41,421 nucleotides of DNA from Deltaproteobacteria bacterium. Lineage in GTDB: Bacteria; Myxococcota; Myxococcia; Myxococcales; 40CM-4-68-19. Location of the stretch: positions 1-41,421 of the forward strand of contig JANYKT010000153.1 of the NCBI GenBank assembly GCA_025358085.1, given 5' to 3'. Below, piece by piece: positions 14,895-35,046 of this stretch (positions within the stretch are counted from its first letter, which is position 1; every line of letters begins with the position of its first letter). The notes below the pieces were generated by a model that was given only the letters and a program-made list of their open reading frames with translations, was not told the origin of the DNA and searched no databases. Made by a program: the position numbers and the translations under genes.

Positions 14895-15013
14895 TGGCAC
14901 GCGCGCTGCAAACCCTTGGGTCTCAGGCGGTGGCTGGCGGGCGCTCGCTTTAGACGGTTGGTGACAGCGAACAGAGCGCGCGGGGCGCAGCAGGGGAATT
15001 GGGGGGGTGCGGC

Positions 15014-16111
15014 GTGGACTCATCGACGACAGGTTCGACAGGTGTAGTGGTGGTCGGCCTTGGTGGCCTGGGAAGCTCGCTGCTTGCGGGCATCGAAGCC
15101 GCGCGCGCGAATCTCGTGCACCCTTGGGGGAGCCTGGTCGAGGGCGGCGGCGGTGCCCGCGGCGCCTCGGGCTCGCTGCGAGAGCGCGCTCCCTTCGCAC
15201 GGCTGTCGGATCTGGTCCTTGGCGCGTTTGAGCTCAAGGAAGATGACGCCTTCCGCGCGGCGCTGCGGGCCGGGATGCTCAGCCGCGCGTTGGTCGATGA
15301 GCTGAGGCCACAACTCCGGCAGGTGCACGCCATGCTCGGCGCGAGGCAGGCGCCAACGCGCCGTCATCTGGCCGACACTCTCGCCGAAGATCTGCGCGGC
15401 TTCCTCGCACACAACCATTGCTCGCGTGGGGTGCTCGTGTGCACCGTGGCGGGACCCGCGCTCGCGCAGGGAAAGCAGGCTGCGACCTCCGCGGAGCTGT
15501 GGGCCGCGCTCGAGGAAGGCGGGGGAGACATCTCGGCCGGACTCGTCTATGCGGCCGCCGCTGCGCAGGCTGGGTTCTCTTTCGTGGCCGCCGCCCCGGA
15601 CGCCGCTATTGCCGCGCCGGGTCTCGCGGCTCTCTTTGCCGAGGCGGGCCTGCCCATTGCCGGATGCGGCCTGGTGGGCCCCGACCTGGCGCTGCGCGAG
15701 GCGCTCGCCCAGGTGTTGGTGGCCGAAGGTTTCGGACTTACCGGCGCGGCCTCCCTCTCCACCCGCGTCGAGGAGCGCGGCGCTCGCCTTTGGGGCGGCC
15801 CTGACCGAACCCAGGAGATGGGTCTCGCGTCGGCGTGGGCGGGGGGCGCGATGGAGCTGAGCCTGGAGCTGCGCGGGCAGGTCCCACTCTACCTCGCGGG
15901 ACGCGCGCTCGACGCCACTTTGATGCTCGATCTGGCAGCTCGCGCAGGGAGCGCAGGCGCGCAGGACTGGATGGGTGCGCTGTTCACAACGAGGCTGGGA
16001 ACAGGGGCGCCGCGCGAGGTCAACACCACCACATTGGCGGTGCGTCGAGCGCGGATGCTGGCTCAGCTACCGAAGCTCGCCGCTGCAGTGGCGCAGTCCC
16101 AGGCAGCGTAG
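15014..16111 (+). CDS. Divergent inositol-3-phosphate synthase (Ino1)-family protein
   Basis: A 365-residue NAD-binding protein with the layout of myo-inositol-phosphate synthases. The opening VVVVGLGGLGSSLLAGIEAA is the family's NAD glycine loop, followed by a Gly-rich GSL block, LSDLVLGAFELKEDDAFRAA (compare DLDDLVFGGWDI), a helix LRPQLRQVHAML, and AEDLRGFLAHNHCSRGVLV. A P-L-x-A-G-C-G block (about 218) precedes the C-terminal region. Lysines are almost absent from the C-terminal half, and the usual DSxxAAPLVLD strand is degenerate (RALDATLMLDLA), so the catalytic lysines of true synthases appear to be missing. I infer a non-canonical or inactive homologue. Start GTG at 15014, after a G-run ribosome binding site; an in-frame TTG at 14999 is possible. 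It is followed by the PomXYZ operon. Confidence 0.65.
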   Translation: MDSSTTGSTGVVVVGLGGLGSSLLAGIEAARANLVHPWGSLVEGGGGARGASGSLRERAPFARLSDLVLGAFELKEDDAFRAALRAGMLSRALVDELRPQLRQVHAMLGARQAPTRRHLADTLAEDLRGFLAHNHCSRGVLVCTVAGPALAQGKQAATSAELWAALEEGGGDISAGLVYAAAAAQAGFSFVAAAPDAAIAAPGLAALFAEAGLPIAGCGLVGPDLALREALAQVLVAEGFGLTGAASLSTRVEERGARLWGGPDRTQEMGLASAWAGGAMELSLELRGQVPLYLAGRALDATLMLDLAARAGSAGAQDWMGALFTTRLGTGAPREVNTTTLAVRRARMLAQLPKLAAAVAQSQAA

Positions 16112-16330: not shown

Positions 16331-17683
16331 GTGGCCGAGCGATCATCCGCAGCATCCGGCCAGCCGAGCCCGTCCGAGCTGCTGCGCGCCGCGCTGGAGA
16401 AAATTGTCTTTTTCGAGTGGCGCCTGTCCGAGATCGCGGCCGAGCTTTCCGCTTCGGAAGCGCGCTGCTCGTCGGCTGAGTTGGAGCGCGGGCGGGCCGA
16501 CCAGGCCACCCACGCTGCGCAGGCCCTGGCGCAGGCCGCGCGCATCCGCATCGCCGAGCTGGAGGCCGACCGCGCCCGCCTGGCCGCACTGCTGGCACGT
16601 CCCGCCCATGCCTTCGCCGCGCCTTCCGAGGCCGATCGCGAGCGCACCGCGCGGCTGGAGGCCGAGTTGACCGACGCGCGCGGCGTGCTGGCCCTGCAGA
16701 AAGAGGAACGTGCCCGGTGGCTCAACGAAATGATCGAGCAGGCCCGCGGTGGCGACGAAGCGCCCGCCGCGCTGGCCCAATTCATCAGCGAGCTGCGCGG
16801 CGACATCATCGCCCTGCGCGAGCGGGAGAAGCAGACGGACGCGCTGTTGCGAGGCGCGGGCATCGAGCTTCCTCAAGTCGTAACTGCACAGCCGCTGGTG
16901 GTCGCGGCGCGGCGCGAGCCGGAGCCGGTCGAAGCCGCCCGGAAGATGTGGGCCGAGGGGCGGCTCGCCGCGCCGACGCCGGACGGAGACTTGCCCTCGG
17001 GCGAGAGCGGTCCGGCACGAGCCTTGGCCGAGCAGTGCTTGCGCGCGCTGGCCTCGCAGGATCCGGCGCGGCGCGAGCAGGCCGCCCGGCATCTGGCAGC
17101 CATGCCGTTGCCATCTGCCGCGCCGCTGCTCGCCAGCGCGCTCGGCAGTGAGCGCGAGCCGCGCGCGCGGGCGCAGCTGGGTCGCGCGCTCGCGGCTTGC
17201 GGCGGCGAAGGCGCGGCCCATCTGGTCGAGCGGCTGCAGGAATCGGACGAGCATCCGCTGGTGCGGCTCGCGGCGCTGGAAGCGCTCAGCCAGCTTGGCG
17301 GCGAGCGCGCGCTCGCGGCGCTGCAGCGGGCCGCGATCGATCCGGCCCCTGCCGTACGCCGTCGCGCAGCCGCACTCGCCGCTTCCACCGACGGCGCGGA
17401 AAAGATCTTCCAGCTCTTCGGTACTGACGAGAACGCCAGCGTCCGGCGCATGAAAGAAGTGGCGCTCAACGAGGCAACGGCAGAGCGTGCACCGGTCGCC
17501 CGGGACGTCGCGCGCGAAGCGCTGCTCGCGGTGCAGGCCGCCATGTTCGGCCTCACCGATGGAGAGCTGGCCGAGACCTTGAACGTACCCGAGCCGGAGG
17601 CGTTCGCGATCGCCAAAGGGCTCGTCTCGGCAGGCCGCCTCGGTCGCCGGGGAAAGCGTTTGATCGCCGCGCAGGGAGGCTGA
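16331..17683 (+). CDS. pomY: PomY-like coiled-coil / HEAT-repeat division protein
   Basis: A 450-residue protein. Residues about 12-175 form a long charged coiled coil starting SELLRAALEKIVFFEW. Residues about 228-385 are HEAT-type helical repeats (LASQDPARREQAARHLAAM, LGSEREPRARAQLGRALAA, DEHPLVRLAALEALSQLGG, DPAPAVRRRAAALAA). The C-terminus (about 398-447) looks like a small winged helix (LTDGELAETLNVPEPEAFAI...GRLGRRGKRLIAA). In Myxococcus xanthus, PomY has an N-terminal coiled coil followed by HEAT repeats, and its gene lies next to pomZ and pomX in this order. PomY there bridges the PomX/PomZ cluster to FtsZ. This protein is shorter than the M. xanthus one and lacks its Pro-rich tail. 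Start chosen at GTG with GAGG four bases upstream. The assignment depends strongly on the neighbours. Confidence 0.7.
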   Translation: MAERSSAASGQPSPSELLRAALEKIVFFEWRLSEIAAELSASEARCSSAELERGRADQATHAAQALAQAARIRIAELEADRARLAALLARPAHAFAAPSEADRERTARLEAELTDARGVLALQKEERARWLNEMIEQARGGDEAPAALAQFISELRGDIIALREREKQTDALLRGAGIELPQVVTAQPLVVAARREPEPVEAARKMWAEGRLAAPTPDGDLPSGESGPARALAEQCLRALASQDPARREQAARHLAAMPLPSAAPLLASALGSEREPRARAQLGRALAACGGEGAAHLVERLQESDEHPLVRLAALEALSQLGGERALAALQRAAIDPAPAVRRRAAALAASTDGAEKIFQLFGTDENASVRRMKEVALNEATAERAPVARDVAREALLAVQAAMFGLTDGELAETLNVPEPEAFAIAKGLVSAGRLGRRGKRLIAAQGG

Positions 17684-17687
17684 AACA

Positions 17688-18662
17688 ATGGACTCGATCC
17701 GGTATTCACCGCGTCGCTTCGCCGAGGTGCTCGGTCTCTCCGCGCGCGAGCTTGCCGACGCCGAGGGCCACGGTTTCGTGCCGCCTTCCGCCACCCCGCC
17801 GCAGCGGACCAGCTACTCGCTCACGGACCTTGCCAGCGCGCGCAAGTCGCTGAACCGCCTGCCCGCCCGCCGGCCGATGCGCAAGCAGCTCTTCCTCAAT
17901 TTCAAGGGCGGTACTGGCAAGACCAGCGTCTCCACCAGCTACGCCTTCCGCCTGGCCGAGATGGGCCACCGGGTGCTGGTCATCGATCTCGATTCGCAGG
18001 GGCACGCCTCGAAGTGCCTCGGGGTCGCGGGCGAGGAGTCGGAGCGCACGCTCTTCGACGCCATCATCAAGAAGGCCCCGCTCGAGCAGGTCATTGTGAA
18101 GACCGGGATGCCGGGGCTGGACCTGGTGCCGTCGAACCTGAGCATGAGCACGATCGACCTCTCGCTGATGCCGCTGGCCGCGCGCGAGTTCCGGCTGCGC
18201 AACTGCCTTAAAGATGTCGAGAGCAACTATGACTTTGTCGTGCTCGACGCGCCGCCTTCCTTTGGCCTGCTCAACTTGAATGCATTGATGGCGGCCCAAG
18301 ATCTGTTTGTTCCGGTGCTGGCCGACTTCCTCTCGTTCCACGGATTGAAGCTGCTCTTCGAAACCGTGCAATCGCTCGAGGAAGATCTCGAGCATGTACT
18401 GGATCACATCTTCATCGTCATCAATGCCTATAACGCCACCTATAAAATCGCCAAGGAGGCGAAGGAGGCTTTGGAAAAGCATTACCCGGAATTCCTCTTG
18501 AAGCAGGTCATCCGGCAGTGCACCAAGTTCGCCCAATCCTCCAGCGAGGGGATCCCGATCTTCGCTTATGATGCGGAGAGCAAGGGCGCGCAGGACATTC
18601 AATCGGTGCTCGACGAGGTGCGGTTGCGCATCGGCGAGCCGTCGAAGTTGAAGCTGGCTTGA
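17688..18662 (+). CDS. pomZ: PomZ, ParA/MinD-type ATPase for division-site positioning
   Basis: A 324-residue ParA/MinD ATPase. Residues 1-60 are an N-terminal extension containing a MerR-like helix-turn-helix (YSPRRFAEVLGLSARELADAEG). The deviant Walker A is FKGGTGKTS (signature K73, K78), Walker A' VIDLDSQG with D102, and Walker B FVVLDAPPS. The residues known from memory as critical in M. xanthus PomZ (G62, K66, D90, K268) map with one constant offset of 12 to G74, K78, D102 and K280 here, which is strong support for orthology. PomZ binds the nucleoid as an ATP dimer and is released when PomX and PomY stimulate hydrolysis, moving the cluster to midcell. It starts 4 bases after pomY and 23 bases precede pomX. 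Confidence 0.87.
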   Translation: MDSIRYSPRRFAEVLGLSARELADAEGHGFVPPSATPPQRTSYSLTDLASARKSLNRLPARRPMRKQLFLNFKGGTGKTSVSTSYAFRLAEMGHRVLVIDLDSQGHASKCLGVAGEESERTLFDAIIKKAPLEQVIVKTGMPGLDLVPSNLSMSTIDLSLMPLAAREFRLRNCLKDVESNYDFVVLDAPPSFGLLNLNALMAAQDLFVPVLADFLSFHGLKLLFETVQSLEEDLEHVLDHIFIVINAYNATYKIAKEAKEALEKHYPEFLLKQVIRQCTKFAQSSSEGIPIFAYDAESKGAQDIQSVLDEVRLRIGEPSKLKLA

Positions 18663-18685
18663 AGCCGGGCATGAGGAGCAACTAG

Positions 18686-19696
18686 ATGAAGCGCGGCTTC
18701 GAGGAGAACGTTCCCAAGGTGCGGCCGCGCGTGCGGCTGGGTCGGGCACTCGACGAGCAACTCGCCGACGAACAGCGACCGGAGCCCGGTTCGGCCGGGG
18801 ACGTGCGGGAGCTTGCAGGTGGGCTGCTGGCGGCCGCGCCGCTGTCACGCACCGAGACTCCGCCGCTGACACGGCTCGAACCGCGCCCCCCGGCGGCTCT
18901 CGAGGCGCTGCAGGCGCTCTCCGAGATCCCGTTGCTGGAGAGCTTCGAGCGCGGCGCGCCGGCAGAAAACTTCGAGCGCGGCGCGCCGGCAGGAAGCTTC
19001 GAGCGCCGTGCGACGCCGGAGAGCTTCGCAAGTGCCGCGGCGCACGCCGAGCAACCGATGGCCCGGCTTGCGCCCGCAACCGGAGCCGCAGCCGAGAGAC
19101 CGCGCGCGCGGAAGCCATCGGCTGGCGCGCAGGTCGCGGGGCTCGCGCGTGAGTTGACCGCGGAGCTCACCCAGGCCGCCGAGGCAAACGGACGGCTCAA
19201 GCAGGATCTCGAAGCGTCCCTGTCGGCGCTGCGCCGCGCCGCCGAAGACGCGCGTGAGACTCGCGGCGAGCAGGACCAGCTGAAGCGGGAACTTCAACAG
19301 CGCGCCGCGGAAGGCCACGAGCTGGGCGCCGAGCTGCAGCTGATCGAGGCTGAACGCGACGGTGCGCTGCAGCAGGTGGCGCGTCTGTCGCGCGAGCTGC
19401 GCGAGGAAAAGGCGGGCTCCCAGGCAGCGGCGTCAGACCTGGGTCGCGCGCGCTCCGAGGCAGCGCAGACGCGCGAGGCGGCCCAGAAGCTGACCGTCGA
19501 GCTGCAGACGCGCACCACCGAGCTCTACCAGGCCCGGGCCGATCTCTTGTCCTCTCGCAGCGAGCGCGAGCGATTGTCCGAGGAGCTCCTGACCGCAAAC
19601 GCAGCCGCCGAGGAGGCAGCGCAGAGCCGGGCGGCGCTGGAGGAGATCCACGAGGCGCTCTCCGAGGCCCGCTCTCGCGTGGCGCGGCTCCGCTAG
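18686..19696 (+). CDS. pomX: PomX, coiled-coil scaffold and PomZ activator
   Basis: A 336-residue protein with two parts. The N-terminal half (1-150) is disordered and rich in Ala, Pro and Glu; the C-terminal half (about 150-336) is one long coiled coil. The first residues, MKRGFEENVPKVRPRVRLG, match the conserved basic PomX peptide that activates PomZ ATPase in M. xanthus. The two key basic positions (13 and 15) are Arg and Arg here. M. xanthus PomX is somewhat longer (about 400). A GAGGAG lies 9 bases before the ATG. Residues 87-113 are three 9-residue repeats. PomX polymerises and nucleates the PomXYZ cluster on the nucleoid. Part of the coiled-coil coding sequence is repeated 0.6 kb downstream (see 20224). 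Confidence 0.8.
   Translation: MKRGFEENVPKVRPRVRLGRALDEQLADEQRPEPGSAGDVRELAGGLLAAAPLSRTETPPLTRLEPRPPAALEALQALSEIPLLESFERGAPAENFERGAPAGSFERRATPESFASAAAHAEQPMARLAPATGAAAERPRARKPSAGAQVAGLARELTAELTQAAEANGRLKQDLEASLSALRRAAEDARETRGEQDQLKRELQQRAAEGHELGAELQLIEAERDGALQQVARLSRELREEKAGSQAAASDLGRARSEAAQTREAAQKLTVELQTRTTELYQARADLLSSRSERERLSEELLTANAAAEEAAQSRAALEEIHEALSEARSRVARLR
18943..19023 (+). repeat. Three tandem 27-bp repeats inside pomX
   Basis: Three in-frame copies of a 27-bp unit beginning CTTCGAGCGCGGCGCGCCGG encode FERGAPAEN, FERGAPAGS and FERRATPES in the disordered half of PomX. The first two differ by only a few bases; the third is more worn. Confidence 0.85.
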
Positions 19697-20312: not shown

Positions 20313-20875
20313 TTACAATCGTTCCTTCGCGCCCCAGAGCAAGAGCCGATCGTAGGTAAACAAGTACGGCCGCACCGGACCCAGCACGGCCAGCAGCCGC
20401 TCGCGATAGCGGTCGATGAACCGCGCGAAGTCCGCAGGCGCGAGGCGCCTTTGGTAATCGGTCAAGAGCGAGCCCCGTACCCACTCGACCACATCCTCGG
20501 CTGATTCCAGCAAGTGCGCATAAGTCTGGAGGCGCACCTGCTGCCTCGCGAAACCGAGCCAGTGCAGCAGCACGGCATAGGCCGCGGGTAGGAGCACGGG
20601 AGACTGCCGCTCGCAACCCTGCAGCGCGCGCGCGAACGCAGGCTCGCGGGCGACTGCCAGCGCAGTTCGGCGACGCATGCTCTTCATTGCACGGCACCTG
20701 AACCGCGAACTGGCCGCCTCGTCTCACCATCGCCGCCAGGTGGGGTAGCAGCGCCGGGTGGTCCGGCAGCCAGTGCAGAGCAGCATTGGAAAAAACCAGG
20801 TCGTACTCGCCGTCGACCTGCGCGATATCGCCCCAACCCGCGCAGGAGCAAATGAAAAGACGCGAGCTGATCGTG
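20313..20875 (-). pseudogene. Trans-aconitate 2-methyltransferase-like pseudogene, N-terminus lost and frameshifted
   Basis: Two minus-strand frames together give the C-terminal two thirds of a Tam-like SAM methyltransferase. The first (about 20870-20690) has GDIAQVDGEYDLVFSNAALH, WLPDHPALLPHLAAMVRRGG and FAVQVPCN. The second (about 20685-20313) continues with REPAFARALQG, SAEDVVEWVRGSLLTDYQRR, RYRERLLAVLG and ends at TAA. A frameshift near 20685 separates them. The N-terminal SAM-binding glycine motif is absent; similarity stops where a 20-bp palindrome (20876-20895) begins. The intact enzyme would methylate trans-aconitate or a related acid. Both the missing head and the frameshift say this copy is dead. 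Confidence 0.8.
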
Positions 20876-27222: not shown

Positions 27223-29067
27223 TCAGGCCGCGTTCAGCCATTGCTCGAATGCGCTGAAGTCATAAGGCCTTCCCAGGAAGTCGCTCACCAGCTCGGCGGC
27301 TTTTTTCGAACCGCCCGGCTCCAGCACGGCCTTTCGATAGCGCCGCGCCGGCGCGGGATTCAATAACCCTTCGCGGCGGAAGGTGGTGAAGAGGTCCTTC
27401 GCAATCACCAGCGACCACATATAAGTGTAATAGATGGCCGAGTAGCCTTCAAGGTGGCCGAAGCTCTCGTGGAAGTACGTGCCGGGCACGGTGCGGAACG
27501 GCGTGTAGCGCGCCTGCAACTCCGCCACCAGCGCGGTCGCGTCCAGCCCGGCCGGATCGCGATCGTGCAGGGATAGAGAGGTCGCCGCGTAGAACATCTG
27601 CTGCCGCACGCGCAGGCCTTTGCCGAACTCGTCGGCTGCACGCATCCGGGCCACCAGTCCGGCAGGGATTGGCTCATTGCTGTCGATATGAAGGGCAAAG
27701 TCCGCCAGGACCTCGGCGTCCCAGCACCATTCCTCCAGCATCTGCGAGGGCGCCTCGACGAAGTCCCATTCGGTGCGAACTCCGGAGAGCCCGGCCCAGC
27801 GCGTGCGTCCGCCAAGCAGATGGTGCAGGAGATGGCCGAATTCGTGAAAGAAGGTGACGACTTCGGTGTGCTCCATGAGCGCAGGCGCGACTTGCGGGAA
27901 ATTGCACAGCAGAGCCGCCTCGGGGAGCGTGCCGCCGGCCACGCCCGACGCCAGCGTGAATTGCGCCGCGTGTTTGTACTTGCCCTCGCGCGGGAAGAGA
28001 TCGAGGAAGAACCGGCCCACGCAAGCGCCGTCTTCCATCAGGTCCCAGGCCGTTACGGCCGGGTGCCAGACCGGCGCATCCGAGGCGCGGTATTCGATTC
28101 CAAAGAGCCGCGCAGTCAAGTCGAACAGTCCTCGCTGGACCCGGGAGACCTCGAAATACGGCCGCACCGATTGGGAATCGAATGCGTACTGGTCGGCGCG
28201 GATGCGTTCTTTCGCGAACTCCGCATCCCACGGCTCGACAGCGGGAGCTTCCCCTCGCAATTGATCGTAATCCCGCTGCGCCCGCTCCCTTGATGCGGTC
28301 GCAATGCGCTCGATGAAGTCCCGCGCGGCGCTCGCGCTGCCGATCATCTTGTCCCCGGTGATGTAAGCGGCCCAGGATTCATATCCGAGCAGCCGCGCCA
28401 GCTCGTATCGCTTCTCCAGCATCCGCTGCAGCACCGCGCTGTTCTGCGGGTGCGCGCGCTGCCGGTACACGCGCCAGAGTTCCTCCCGCGCCTTCGAGCT
28501 GCGCGCATAGGTCATGAACGGCAGGTAATCAGGCGTATCGGTGGTGATCCGTTTTTCGGGGTGCGAGCGGATGTAATCGGCAGGCAGGCCGCTCAAGTCA
28601 TCGGCAATGATGCTGGGCATATCGTCGCAAATGTTACGGCTGAACTCCTGGCCAATCTTGACCAGCTCTTCATTCAATTCTCGCACCCGCGCGCGGGTAG
28701 CAGCGTCCTGGTCCACTCCGGCGCGGCGAAAGTCGCGCAGCGTGCGCTCCAGGTAATAGTCGCCGGCCGGTACCGCGGCGAGCGCAGCATAGATCTCCGG
28801 ATCGAGCGAGAGCTCGGTGTTCAACGCCTCCAGCTCCTGTTCGCACTTCTCGGCGGCGTCGCGCATGGCCGCGTCGGGGTGCGCATTGCGCGCGACGCTC
28901 GCCCGCGCGCTCGCGTCGCCCAGCGTCGCGAACGCCAGATCCCACAATTCGAGCGCGGCGCCTCCAGCTTTGAGTCGCGCCACCGCCTCTCGCGCCTGCC
29001 GCAACGCCGCCTGCGACGCGGCGATGAATTGATCAGGTGTCCCTGCCAGCAGTCGAGAAGCCGTCAT
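27223..29067 (-). CDS. M3-family zinc oligopeptidase
   Basis: A 614-residue cytoplasmic metallopeptidase of the thimet-oligopeptidase/oligopeptidase A type (M3A). The zinc site is HEFGH (408-412) in VVTFFHEFGHLLHHLLGG, with the third ligand Glu in WDFVEAPSQMLEEW (about 438). The substrate-binding tail FRTVPGTYFHESFGHLEGYS carries the usual Tyr/His/Gly loop. The length is shorter than E. coli OpdA (680) but within the family range. AAGGAGG lies 7 bases before the ATG and fixes the start. It degrades peptides left by ATP-dependent proteases, or cleaves signal peptides; no specific partner is adjacent. Confidence 0.93.
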   Translation of the reverse strand: MTASRLLAGTPDQFIAASQAALRQAREAVARLKAGGAALELWDLAFATLGDASARASVARNAHPDAAMRDAAEKCEQELEALNTELSLDPEIYAALAAVPAGDYYLERTLRDFRRAGVDQDAATRARVRELNEELVKIGQEFSRNICDDMPSIIADDLSGLPADYIRSHPEKRITTDTPDYLPFMTYARSSKAREELWRVYRQRAHPQNSAVLQRMLEKRYELARLLGYESWAAYITGDKMIGSASAARDFIERIATASRERAQRDYDQLRGEAPAVEPWDAEFAKERIRADQYAFDSQSVRPYFEVSRVQRGLFDLTARLFGIEYRASDAPVWHPAVTAWDLMEDGACVGRFFLDLFPREGKYKHAAQFTLASGVAGGTLPEAALLCNFPQVAPALMEHTEVVTFFHEFGHLLHHLLGGRTRWAGLSGVRTEWDFVEAPSQMLEEWCWDAEVLADFALHIDSNEPIPAGLVARMRAADEFGKGLRVRQQMFYAATSLSLHDRDPAGLDATALVAELQARYTPFRTVPGTYFHESFGHLEGYSAIYYTYMWSLVIAKDLFTTFRREGLLNPAPARRYRKAVLEPGGSKKAAELVSDFLGRPYDFSAFEQWLNAA

Positions 29068-30508: not shown

Positions 30509-32395
30509 CTAAGGCTTCGCGGCTGGCGTGGTTGAACGCGCGATCTCCTTGCGCTGTACCCACTCCTCGACCATCCGCCCCAGCACGGCGAGCGGCACCG
30601 CGCCGTGGTCCAGGACCACGTCGTGAAATTCCTTGAGATTGAATTGGGTGCCCAGCCGCCGCTCGGCCTCGTGGCGCAGCCGGAATATTTCCTCTTCACC
30701 GACCATATAGGCCAGCGCTTGTGCCGGCATGATGACATAGCGGTCGATCTCGTTCTCAGCCTCGTGCGGCGGCAGCGTCGTATGGTCGCGCAGGAACTGC
30801 AGCGCTTTGGCACGGTCCCAGTGCAGCGAGTGCATTCCGGTATCGACCACCAGCCGCGAGGCTCGCCACGCCTGGTAGCCCAGCATTCCATAGCGCGCGA
30901 GGGGCCCCGAATAGAGATGGAGGGTCTCGTCCGCCAGTCGCTCGCTATAGAGCGCCCAGCCTTCGATATAGGCGGTCTCGCCCGTCTGCCGCCGGAAGTC
31001 GGGCAAGCCTTTAAGCTCCTGGGCGATCGATCCCTGCAGGTGATGCCCGGGGATGGCTTCGTGGAAGCATAATGCCTCTTCGTTATAGAGCGCGCGCGTC
31101 TCCGGGTTGAAGGTATTGACGTAATAGACCCCAGGCTGCGTGCCATCGTCCGAGGCGGGCTGGTAGAAAGCGGGAGTACTTGTTTCGGCCCGGTAAGCCT
31201 CGATGGCGCGGGTGACGATAGGCCGGGGCGGCAAACGATTGAAAGCCTGCGGCAGCGCGGCCATGGCGCGCAAGAGCGTGGCCTTGTTCCAGTCGAGCAG
31301 CTCCTCCGCGGTCTGCTTGAATTGATCTTTGCGCGCATCGACCGACTTGCGAAAGGCTTTGAGATCGACCGGGAGCTTGAAGCCTTGTGACGCGGCGATT
31401 TCGCCCTGTTCCGCCTCGATGGCCGTCAGCAGCCTCAAGCCCAGCTCGTGAAGCTCTTGCGGCTTGCGTTGGGTTCCAGTGTGATATCGAATCAGAAAAG
31501 CATAGCAAGCCTCCCCGCCCGGCTGCGCCCACAGGCCCACGTCGACGCGCGCCTTGGGCAGCAGCTGCTTCTGCAGAAAGTCGCGATACTTCTGGAGACC
31601 CGGAAGCACCGATTCGCTGACCGCCTTTCTGATCGCCTCCCGTGCCGTGTCGCGCTGCGCCGCGGGAAGACCCTTGAATCTCTCCTCGGCCGGAAGGAAG
31701 TCGTCGGCTCTCAGCTTCACCAGCTGGTCGATGACTTTCTGCACATTCGTCTTCGGCGAGGTCTTTCCCGCCGCGAGACCGCGCGAAAGGTTGGCAATCT
31801 GCTGGTCGAACATTCGAGAAGCCTGGCCATACCGCGAGGCCAGCTCGGCTGCGCCCTGCGCGGTCCCCAGCCGATAGAAGAGCCCGGTCTGCGCGAGCGA
31901 CACCTGCACTCCATTCATTTGATCGACCAGCCAATCCTCGCCGCCGCAGACCAGCGATGATTTGATGTCTTCGAGTTGGCCGCGCAGGATCTCGAGCGTC
32001 AGCGCGTCCTCGCCGCCGAGCAGCCCGGAAGGGATCGAGTCCACCTCGGTCCGCAGGCGCTCGATCTCCTGCAGCGTCCGTGTGTAAGCCTCGGGGGAGA
32101 GATCGTCGAGGCGACCGTCGAAGCGGTGATCACCCATCGCGGTGGCCGCGAGCGGGCCGCCCAGGCCTCCCTCGCCCAGGAGCGGGAGCTGGCCAGTTTC
32201 CAGTAGAGCGGTCCAATAGCGACCGCTCAGTTCGCGCAGGTGGTCAGCGGCGCTGGTGTCCGAATGCCGGACCGCGACTTGCGCCGGCTCGGTCAGCCTG
32301 GTCGGCGCCGGTTGTTGCGGCGTCGCGCAGGACACGATGAGGGGGAAAGCAGGAAAGAGGACCGCGAAAAAGGCGACGCAGGGGCGAGCGCTCAT
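30509..32395 (-). CDS. DUF885 lipoprotein metallopeptidase
   Basis: A 628-residue exported protein. The signal peptide ends in IVSC with the lipid-accepting Cys at 23. The family's zinc motif is HEAIPGHH (H445, E446, H451) and the distal glutamate is in EGWALYSE (E478). DUF885 proteins are gluzincin-like peptidases, mostly exported. It is the last gene of the minus-strand operon selenocysteine DsbA / ycaO / tfuA / this gene, beginning 10 bases after the tfuA stop. No clear ribosome binding site is seen, so translation may be coupled. In RiPP-like clusters a peptidase often removes the leader peptide; that role here is only a suggestion, since an extracytoplasmic lipoprotein would act after export. 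Confidence 0.82.
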   Translation of the reverse strand: MSARPCVAFFAVLFPAFPLIVSCATPQQPAPTRLTEPAQVAVRHSDTSAADHLRELSGRYWTALLETGQLPLLGEGGLGGPLAATAMGDHRFDGRLDDLSPEAYTRTLQEIERLRTEVDSIPSGLLGGEDALTLEILRGQLEDIKSSLVCGGEDWLVDQMNGVQVSLAQTGLFYRLGTAQGAAELASRYGQASRMFDQQIANLSRGLAAGKTSPKTNVQKVIDQLVKLRADDFLPAEERFKGLPAAQRDTAREAIRKAVSESVLPGLQKYRDFLQKQLLPKARVDVGLWAQPGGEACYAFLIRYHTGTQRKPQELHELGLRLLTAIEAEQGEIAASQGFKLPVDLKAFRKSVDARKDQFKQTAEELLDWNKATLLRAMAALPQAFNRLPPRPIVTRAIEAYRAETSTPAFYQPASDDGTQPGVYYVNTFNPETRALYNEEALCFHEAIPGHHLQGSIAQELKGLPDFRRQTGETAYIEGWALYSERLADETLHLYSGPLARYGMLGYQAWRASRLVVDTGMHSLHWDRAKALQFLRDHTTLPPHEAENEIDRYVIMPAQALAYMVGEEEIFRLRHEAERRLGTQFNLKEFHDVVLDHGAVPLAVLGRMVEEWVQRKEIARSTTPAAKP

Positions 32396-32405
32396 CTAAG
32401 GCTCT

Positions 32406-33422
32406 TTACGCCCCCTCGCGCCTCGGCGCTACTCCTCGCACTCGCGCTTCGTCGGCCAGCGCTTCCTCGCGCGAGGGCCCGTCGGGAACGATGCGTTCGG
32501 CGTGATCGAGCACCAGCCGCTCCAACGCCACATCCTCATCCAGCCGCGTCGAGCAAGGAGGTACCCGCAAGCCCAGCGACCGCGCCCACGCGGCCAACAG
32601 CGCGCGGCGCAGTCCCGCATCGATCAGCTCCCGGGCGTCGGGCCGGGCGGAGAGCTCGATCAAAAGCGCCTCCGGAATGCGCCGCCGCCGGACCAGCGAA
32701 GAAGGCGCCTGCAATCGCGGCAAAGGTTGCGGGCCCGGACTAGCGGCCACCGCGCTGCGAATGGTCTCGCGGGCATCAATGCTTTTCAAATCCTCGACAA
32801 AGGTCCATCGCGCGCGCGCCGCCGCGGGCAAAAGCGACAGCACGACAGGCCAGGTACGCTCTTGATAAAAGATGCGTGCGGAAGCGCGGACCAGCGCGTG
32901 AGCCTGCTTGATGGTCAATACCTTCGCCTTCGTCGCCTGCGCCGCGGCATGCCGCACGTTGACCTGCGCAAGCGTCAGAGGTCGATAGTCGTGCTCGGCG
33001 TCCGCGTGCAACAGCGCGACCTCGGCATCATCTTCAATCAATCCGTCTCGCACCCAGCGAAAGATCTGCCCGACGCCGACCATGCCGCGGTCCTGCAACT
33101 CCGCGGCGCGCAGCGCCCCCATGCTGGCGCCACCGAAGACGGCCACTCCTTGATCGAGCGCATCGAGCAATTCATGGTGCCAGACCGACGGCTGCGATTC
33201 GAAGACTCCGTCCACCAGCGCGATGGCGCGCGGCCGCAGCTCGAGTGCGCGCCAGACGTCGCCCTGGCGCGCAGGCCCGAGCACGACGTCCGCACCCAGC
33301 GAGCGCGCCTCCGGATGCGACAGTGAGGGGCCGACAAAGGCGACCACCGGTCCGCGCAAGAGAGGAGCGGGGTGATCGCGCGGCACCTTCGTCCGGCGCG
33401 CCTTTGCTCTTGCGCGCTTCAA
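32406..33422 (-). CDS. tfuA: TfuA-like protein
   Basis: A 338-residue protein of the TfuA family (named from trifolitoxin synthesis). Family blocks: VVAFVGPSLSHPEA, VVLGPARQGDVWRAL, ALVDGVFESQPSVWHHELL, VAVFGGASMGALRAAEL, GMVGVGQIFRWVRDGLIEDD and YRPLTLAQVNVR. TfuA partners YcaO in installing thioamides, probably by supplying sulfide from a thiocarboxylated carrier. The start is TTG at 33420-33422, overlapping the ycaO stop as TTGA, with GGAG 5 bases upstream; a GTG at 33386 is the alternative. The N-terminal 25 residues before the conserved part are basic. No ThiS-like carrier is in the window. Confidence 0.9.
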   Translation of the reverse strand: MKRARAKARRTKVPRDHPAPLLRGPVVAFVGPSLSHPEARSLGADVVLGPARQGDVWRALELRPRAIALVDGVFESQPSVWHHELLDALDQGVAVFGGASMGALRAAELQDRGMVGVGQIFRWVRDGLIEDDAEVALLHADAEHDYRPLTLAQVNVRHAAAQATKAKVLTIKQAHALVRASARIFYQERTWPVVLSLLPAAARARWTFVEDLKSIDARETIRSAVAASPGPQPLPRLQAPSSLVRRRRIPEALLIELSARPDARELIDAGLRRALLAAWARSLGLRVPPCSTRLDEDVALERLVLDHAERIVPDGPSREEALADEARVRGVAPRREGA

Positions 33423-34441
33423 AGCAGCTCCGAGATTGCGAGTCCGGGAACAAGCACCTTCACCACCCAGAGCGGCGTACGCGTGAGCACGACCTCAGCG
33501 GCCCGGCGATGGCCCGCGCGCCACAGGCCGCGCGCCACGTCGCCTTGTCTACCGGAAAGCCGCCTCCGCTTCCCGCGAATGCTCAAGCACGCATCGCGCA
33601 GTCCCGCCGCGTCGGCTCGGTCTATCGGGGTGACATCCTCGCGCGCGCCGTGGATGTCGGTGAGCCGCGACTGCGCGGCCTCCAGCAGCGCGCGCTCGAG
33701 CGCCTCGTCCCCGCAGGCATAGCCCGCGGCGACCGGCACCGGCCCTTCCTCCCGATCGATCAGCAGCGCCGCCGCCACGGGCAGCCCGAGGTTGCCGCCC
33801 AGATCGAAGAAATGCGCCTCGAGGGCCGGCCCGATTGCGCGAACCTCGCGCAGCTTGCGTTCGCGCATCGCAGCGAGTGTCCAGCCATCGGGCAGCGCGC
33901 GGGCGACTTGATCGCGCTCGGCCGCCTCCTGCAGCGCGTGGCGCAGCGCCAGCGCGTGCGTGCGGTGCGCGCCCATTCCATTGGTGCTCCAGCGAATGAT
34001 CGCGGGGCCCAGCTGCGCCGCGCCTGGCGGAGGGCAATGCACTGCCTGCGCCGGAACCAGCACGCTGGTCGCGGAAAACAATTCGCGCGCGGGCCGCCAG
34101 GCGATGCGCGTGTCCTCACTCCACAGACGCTGTGCGACCAGATCTCCGCCCGAGCCTAAATCAGCCGCGTCCCACGCGCCGGGCAATGCGCGCAATGAAC
34201 CAAAGACACACTCGACAGGATCGAATCGCTCGGCCGCCCACAACTCCGCGGCTTCCGAGAGCGCGCCGCGCGCTGCCTGCGCGAAGGTTCGGCCCTTGCC
34301 GTTGGTGACTTGCAAGACATGCCCGCCCGGCCGGATGGCGCAAGCCACTTCGATCCCGGCGCGGTCCAGCCCGGTCACGCGTGCGATTCGCGTTACACCG
34401 AGCGCTTTGGCAATGCCTTCCAAGAGTCCCCTTCGGTTCAC
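33419..34441 (-). CDS. YcaO-domain ATP-dependent cyclodehydratase/thioamide synthetase
   Basis: A 340-residue stand-alone YcaO protein. The ATP-site region includes the segments GRTFAQAARGALSEAAELWA (51-70), WSTNGMGAHRTHALALRHAL (151-170) and QEAAERD (171-177), with the ExxxExxxxxxE spread of YcaO Glu residues. The C-terminus ends PLWVVKVLVPGLAISELL. YcaO enzymes activate a backbone amide by phosphorylation, and with TfuA they give thioamides. The start is GTG at 34439-34441, overlapping the stop of the DsbA-like gene as GTGA; the frame further upstream is antisense-like noise. It is the second gene of the operon. The missing precursor peptide leaves its substrate unknown; a ribosomal or metabolic protein is an option, as with methyl-coenzyme M reductase in methanogens. 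Confidence 0.92.
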   Translation of the reverse strand: MNRRGLLEGIAKALGVTRIARVTGLDRAGIEVACAIRPGGHVLQVTNGKGRTFAQAARGALSEAAELWAAERFDPVECVFGSLRALPGAWDAADLGSGGDLVAQRLWSEDTRIAWRPARELFSATSVLVPAQAVHCPPPGAAQLGPAIIRWSTNGMGAHRTHALALRHALQEAAERDQVARALPDGWTLAAMRERKLREVRAIGPALEAHFFDLGGNLGLPVAAALLIDREEGPVPVAAGYACGDEALERALLEAAQSRLTDIHGAREDVTPIDRADAAGLRDACLSIRGKRRRLSGRQGDVARGLWRAGHRRAAEVVLTRTPLWVVKVLVPGLAISELL

Positions 34442-35046
34442 TGCTTCCGCTTCTCCCCCAGGCGCTCCATCGCGGCGCGGAAAGCGGGCTGCTCCTCGGC
34501 CCCTTGAATCGCGAAAGCATCGTTGAAGATGAAAGTGGGCACCGCGCCAATGCCTATCTCTTGCGCTTCCCGCACGCCCTGCTCCACCGCGGCGCGATAA
34601 GTCCCGCTCTCGAGCGCTCGCACGAGCTGGTCCGGGTCGAGACCCGCGTCGGTCGCCGCGCCCCGCAGCACCTCGAGCGAATAGAGGTCCTGCCCCTCCT
34701 CCCAATAGCGCTTCAGCAGCGCCGCGTGCAGCGGCTCGAGCTTGCCATGCGCTCGCGCGAACTCGACTGCCTCGTGCGCCCGGCGCGTAGAAGGAATCCG
34801 GTCCCCGCGCACCATCTTGAGTCCTTCGCGCGCCGCGCGCAGCTTCAGGGGCTCATTCGGGTCCTTCATCTTCTCGAGGATATAGGCGGGCACCGGCATC
34901 CCTTCCGGCGGGGTCTCGGGCCGCAGGAAGAACGGCTTCCAGTCCACTTCCAACTCATAGTCCTTGCGCAGCTTTTCGATCTCCACGAGACCGACGTAGC
35001 ACCAGGGTCAAACGAAGTCAGACCAGATCTTTACTTGCACCGTCAT
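34438..35046 (-). CDS. DsbA/FrnE-like selenoprotein with in-frame TGA at the active site
   Basis: Translated through the TGA at 35008-35010, this is a 202-residue thioredoxin-fold protein of the FrnE/2-hydroxychromene-isomerase DsbA group. It begins MTVQVKIWSDFV-U-PWCYVG, where TGA (U13) replaces the first Cys of the CPWC active site. The cis-proline loop is GIGAVPTFIFNDAFA (about 170), and DLYSLEVL and the C-terminal helix are typical. The ATG at 35044-35046 has AAAAGGAG 5 bases upstream, far better than the GTG at 34984-34986 just past the active site, so translation surely starts before the TGA. A stable hairpin follows the TGA (see 34976). The gene leads the ycaO/tfuA operon, overlapping ycaO as GTGA. 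Sec gives a stronger thiol-like nucleophile; the substrate is unknown. A sequencing error (TGC read as TGA) is the main alternative. Confidence 0.82.
34976..34994 (-). promoter_or_regulatory. Bacterial SECIS-like stem-loop
   Basis: In the mRNA, UCGGUCUC and GAGAUCGA pair in an 8-bp stem (one G-U) around the loop GUG. The stem begins 14 bases and the loop 22 bases after the UGA. A short apical loop with G among its first two bases, at this distance, is what SelB recognises in bacterial selenoprotein messages. It lies in coding sequence. Confidence 0.7.

Follow-up and report, generated by a model that had tools for sequence, protein, structure and literature searches.

The Pom system of Myxococcus xanthus, which positions the ring at which the cell divides, is made up of PomX, PomY and PomZ (MXAN_0636, MXAN_0634 and MXAN_0635, respectively). 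Two residues of PomX, K13 and R15, are both needed for PomZ activation (PMC7993993). Activation of PomZ by PomY depends on residues 496-682 of the latter, where a disordered part and a winged-helix domain designated gD (residues 624-682, three helices and two strands) are both needed, proteins without 496-623 or without 624-682 failing to activate PomZ; how gD contributes was stated to be unknown in the 2026 paper, in which K268 of PomZ is described as a DNA-binding residue (PMC13170346). When only the coiled coil and HEAT repeats of PomY are present, FtsZ recruitment, constriction and the marking of constriction sites persist (PMC10307791). The published survey of Pom orthologs drew on fully sequenced genomes.

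The window analysed here is a stretch of 41,421 nucleotides corresponding to contig C153 of a draft genome (5.4 Mb, 98% complete), the closest named relatives of which are uncultured “Deltaproteobacteria” assemblies. In the genome set compared, this genome and its relatives form one family, labelled f1, of the same order as Myxococcus and Anaeromyxobacter. Three adjoining genes of the forward strand (450, 324 and 336 codons in the list of open reading frames) occupy positions 16331-19696, and their succession, HEAT protein, ParA-type ATPase and coiled-coil protein, is the pomY-pomZ-pomX order of M. xanthus AM003 (locus L024). A preliminary description of this DNA had proposed a complete PomY-PomZ-PomX locus in the M. 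xanthus order, and it proved right in both respects, with gene order, key residues, PomZ phylogeny, conservation of the PomX peptide and comparison of PomX profiles all in agreement. Searches of Pfam and NCBIfam yielded no Pom-specific family model. Judged from sequence, the three genes almost certainly represent an orthologous PomX/PomY/PomZ locus of an uncultured soil family of Myxococcales (Table 1).

Table 1. Coordinates of the pom genes and of the features recognised in their products
Feature	Position	Strand	Basis and remarks
pomY	16331..17683	+	450 aa, GTG start; ORF; orthologous to PomY in 12/12 f1 genomes
PomY N-terminal coiled coil, residues 14-175	16370..16855	+	AlphaFold2 model; invariant/near-invariant LRAALEKIVFFEWR segment (alignment)
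PomY HEAT array, residues 227-386, about five repeats / ten helices	17009..17488	+	Pfam, model
PomY 6-residue junction, residues 387-392, site of M. xanthus disordered tail with helix alpha5	17489..17506	+	model
PomY gD winged-helix domain, residues 393-446	17507..17668	+	HHHEE, block pLDDT mostly >90
PomY F406-G407-L408, Arg-Gly site in other families	17546..17554	+	alignment
pomZ	17688..18662	+	324 aa ParA/MinD-type ATPase
PomZ P-loop FKGGTGKT, holds G74 and K78	17901..17924	+	alignment
PomZ K280, equivalent of DNA-binding K268	18525..18527	+	alignment; PMC13170346
pomX	18686..19696	+	336 aa; profile match (hhalign) to PomX of the M. xanthus type
PomX N-terminal PomZ-activating peptide, residues 1-22	18686..18751	+	invariant positions in 9 f1 members
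PomX C-terminal coiled coil, about residues 150-336, ends in ALEEIHEAL box	19133..19693	+	alignment, profile

The likeness to M. xanthus PomXYZ covers the gene order, the catalytic and DNA-binding residues of PomZ, and the peptide and coiled coil of PomX. With chromosomal ParABS and MinCDE the system has in common a ParA/MinD ATPase whose activity is stimulated by a basic N-terminal peptide; unlike in those systems, the ATPase forms a separate clade (PomZ), and no MinC was found in the genome of the window. This absence, together with the presence of an FtsZ gene, makes the Pom system a plausible regulator of the division site in this organism.

As for the surroundings of the locus, a myo-inositol-1-phosphate synthase-like gene (14999-16111, forward strand) lies directly upstream of pomY; it is also found there in the f1 relatives L008, L010, L015 and L016, and nothing matching it turned up in the Myxococcus loci used for comparison. 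A methyltransferase gene on the reverse strand (20331-20805) is split over two frames (tblastn with the intact L010 homologue, frames -1 and -3), which indicates a frameshift or an assembly error. Farther along, adjoining TfuA-like and YcaO genes (32406-34705, reverse strand) form a pair of the thioamidation/RiPP type, beside which a DUF885 protein (30509-32395) is encoded, with an M3 peptidase (27223-29067) nearby.

The PomZ of the window shares 199 of 312 aligned residues (~64%) with that of M. xanthus, and G62, K66, D90 and K268 of the latter align with G74, K78, D102 and K280 at the constant offset of 12 given in the preliminary description. Across 60 genomes of the order there is a clear gap in identity, PomZ-like matches reaching at least 57% and the next ParA at most 37%. 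A maximum-likelihood tree of 52 sequences, obtained by a quick search with SH-aLRT support values only, separated PomZ from ParA with a support of 100 and placed the ATPase of the window among the former, inside an f1 clade (support 97) whose nearest neighbours are f5 and f8 and which groups with Anaeromyxobacter. Three Pom loci labelled Comamonas (L025), Chitinispirillaceae (L057) and Fibrobacter (L067) are myxobacterial in look, and the L057 PomZ groups with Anaeromyxobacter in the same tree; these records were probably mislabelled or their contigs mis-binned.

The product of the third gene, shorter than M. xanthus PomX (336 versus 404 residues), starts with MKRGFEENVPKVRPRVRLG, to be compared with MKKAFEQNVSRAKPRLRLG, the activating peptide of 22 residues in M. 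xanthus; R15 is kept and K13 is replaced by R. In 104 PomX sequences, near-duplicates included, position 13 was K or R (R in 39/104) and position 15 R or K, without exception, in line with the basic activating peptide announced for the PomX N-terminus. Among nine f1 members M1, K2, G4, F5, E6, N8, R13, P14, R15, V16 and R17 are invariant. A comparison by hhalign of the f1 coiled-coil profile with the M. xanthus-type profile returned a probability of 99.1 and an E-value of 6e-19, values of a kind that coiled coils inflate, with which the peptide and the gene position concur.

It is in PomY that the locus departs from the M. xanthus system. The two PomYs are about 31% identical in the alignment, and the protein of the window is indeed short, as had been noted, with about 450 residues against 682. 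Its AlphaFold2 model (mean pLDDT 84.9) comprises the same coiled coil, HEAT and gD modules, the HEAT repeats exceeding the Pfam cut-offs (HEAT_2, E 7.9e-13; HEAT, 2.7e-7) and numbering about five instead of the seven reported for M. xanthus, the last HEAT segment of which has no counterpart here. At the C-terminus, three helices and two strands are predicted, that is, a winged helix, and the gD profile retrieved it from the window's own genome with an E-value of 1.3e-29. The preliminary description had a winged-helix C-terminus standing in place of the Pro-rich tail. A winged helix is indeed predicted and the tail is missing, but the domain is not a substitute, for M. xanthus PomY also ends in gD, besides carrying a long tail. 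The winged helix is a known, ancestral feature of PomY (PMC13170346), matched by the gD profile in 99 of 110 Pom loci (two collections, duplicates included). A search of the PDB with the whole PomY model returned nothing but artificial alpha-helical repeat proteins and other HEAT proteins, and was uninformative on gD. The net charge of PomY differs as well (pI 5.7 in the window against 8.9 in M. xanthus AM003), but other families overlap with this shift, and it has no diagnostic value.

What f1 PomY lacks is the last HEAT segment (about two repeats) and the disordered tail with its helix alpha5. The spacing between the last shared HEAT column and helix 1 of gD, measured with truncated and gD-less rows counted in, amounts to 26-58 residues in f1 and f5, whereas the remaining families and loci have 73-304; since disordered tails diverge fast in all families, functional proof of tail loss is hard. 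The alpha5 motif (PVQAALVAM), for which contact with PomZ has been proposed, occurred in exact or nearly exact form in the Myxococcus/Corallococcus/Pyxidicoccus group alone, with scores of 46-51 against a shuffled maximum of 31, and motif scoring against shuffled sequences did not detect it in the PomY of the window or in most other lineages. Its absence alone is therefore not special and does not define the PomXYZ system. The Anaeromyxobacter and Archangium systems likewise have gD and no detectable alpha5, but, unlike the window, they retain the Arg-Gly of gD together with a tail of some 150-210 residues. Their alpha5-less PomYs have in common a short R-x-A-V-A-V motif immediately preceding gD, at a distance of about 68-76 residues from the C-terminal end (L038, L042, L053, L072, L074, L075, L078, L080 and others), which could be an alternative PomZ-contact motif.

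A further change affects the Arg-Gly pair in gD helix 1, which 81/81 PomYs from outside f1 carry, as does every sampled family from f2 to f9, and which is replaced by [FL]G[LM] in the six f1 PomYs that have gD (6/6; FG in the window). The pair corresponds to R641-G642 of M. xanthus, by numbering counted from the C-terminus on strain AM003, a count under which the alpha5 residues match their published numbers.

In part of the family gD itself is gone. In five species, all from a single f1 genus, PomY is devoid of gD and its stop codon overlaps the start of pomZ, and the gD profile found no gD anywhere in these five genomes at E <0.005. Assembly error or frameshift was ruled out by the stop-start overlap, the agreement of five separate species, one genome rated 100% complete with its Pom locus on a 175-kb contig, and the genome-wide absence of gD. 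The dN/dS values of 0.15-0.22 between gD-less PomYs indicate a protein maintained under purifying selection and exclude a decaying gene. One or two losses within the genus would account for the pattern, both numbers being compatible with the PomZ tree. Elsewhere, L082 and L087, near Vulgatibacter-like sequences, carry PomY-like proteins without detectable gD, possibly through independent loss.

These observations can be placed on the M. xanthus model, from which all the biochemical steps for f1 are taken over, what was computed here being order, orthology, layout and losses. The coiled coil of PomX would polymerise into a scaffold, which PomY would coat by means of its coiled coil and HEAT array while recruiting FtsZ; DNA-bound PomZ-ATP dimers would tether the PomX/PomY assembly to the nucleoid, and the N-terminal peptide of PomX would trigger ATP hydrolysis by PomZ, moving the assembly to midcell. 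In f1, PomY would have seen its own PomZ-activating (AAP) role eroded, leaving the PomX peptide as the main or only activator. We infer the latter because f1 PomY is reduced in the regions that activate PomZ in M. xanthus and keeps those that bind the scaffold and recruit FtsZ. By this analogy, the chances that the PomX peptide acts as main or sole PomZ activator in f1 appear to be even. For the combined reading, with an orthologous Pom system, an eroded AAP role of PomY and activation by PomX alone or nearly so, the balance tips modestly in favour. A stricter version, with f1 having a single-activator Pom system, PomY serving only in condensate formation and FtsZ recruitment, and the gD Arg-Gly (R641) being the activating arginine of PomY, is put forward tentatively and is rather doubtful. 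The retention of gD in the window and in other lineages indicates that some gD function is still under selection. Moreover, since the equivalent truncation of M. xanthus PomY impairs positioning, f1 would need a compensating change, and none was identified.

Against an eroded role of PomY, seven of the eight PomZ residues modelled as alpha5 contacts are identical in f1, the eighth being a fixed A147 to S change, which leaves room for another PomY ligand. The background of 161 identical columns among the 260 compared (about 62%) gives this conservation little power either way, and no signal of co-evolution between the alpha5 pocket and alpha5 loss emerged. The same residues are equally conserved where the alpha5 motif is undetectable; their conservation thus lends weak support to the alpha5-binding model, and likewise does not show that f1 has lost PomY binding. 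It is on such a nearly unchanged pocket that the best surviving alternative builds, according to which f1 PomY still activates PomZ in a compact manner, through a HEAT-docked gD whose helix 1 (AVQAAMFGL) would stand in for alpha5, so that dual activation persists. The retention of gD and of a basic C-terminal RRGKRL in the window and several relatives, the restriction of the [FL]G[LM] replacement to f1 and the VQAALFG of L011 at the helix-1 site all speak for it. Yet the likeness of helix 1 to alpha5 scores within the shuffled range (15-19, 95th percentile 25), which led us to reject a convergent alpha5 in gD, the domain is absent in the five sister species, and the residues of helix 1 may lie in the interior of the wing fold. 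Compact activation is held to be rather unlikely.

Far less probable is the suggestion of the preliminary description that a short PomY with a winged helix is a variant of FtsZ coupling. PomY is short and its Pro-rich tail is absent, but the winged helix is ancestral, being found in M. xanthus as in nearly all PomYs, and some relatives do entirely without it. What has been altered, tail and gD, is the PomZ-activating region (PMC13170346), whereas the coiled coil and HEAT repeats, which in M. xanthus are enough for constrictions to be marked (PMC10307791), are retained. That the locus merely holds an ordinary ParA ATPase flanked by unrelated coiled-coil proteins, as the generic families scoring on it (AAA_31, partition ATPase) might suggest, is already refuted by the PomZ phylogeny and the PomX peptide, the genome having its own separate ParA gene on another contig (C6) and the peptide and PomY profile being kept as a unit across families.

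In summary, the locus is a known Pom system with a slimmed-down variant of PomY. The presence of two ATPase activators in PomXYZ is unusual among ParA/MinD systems, and in f1 the system is kept while the tail, the gD arginine and sometimes gD as a whole are lost, which amounts to a natural dissection of the PomY parts that are needed. The comparison singles out one residue of PomY, R641 in M. xanthus, and the family offers a natural test of whether the Pom machine needs two switches or one.
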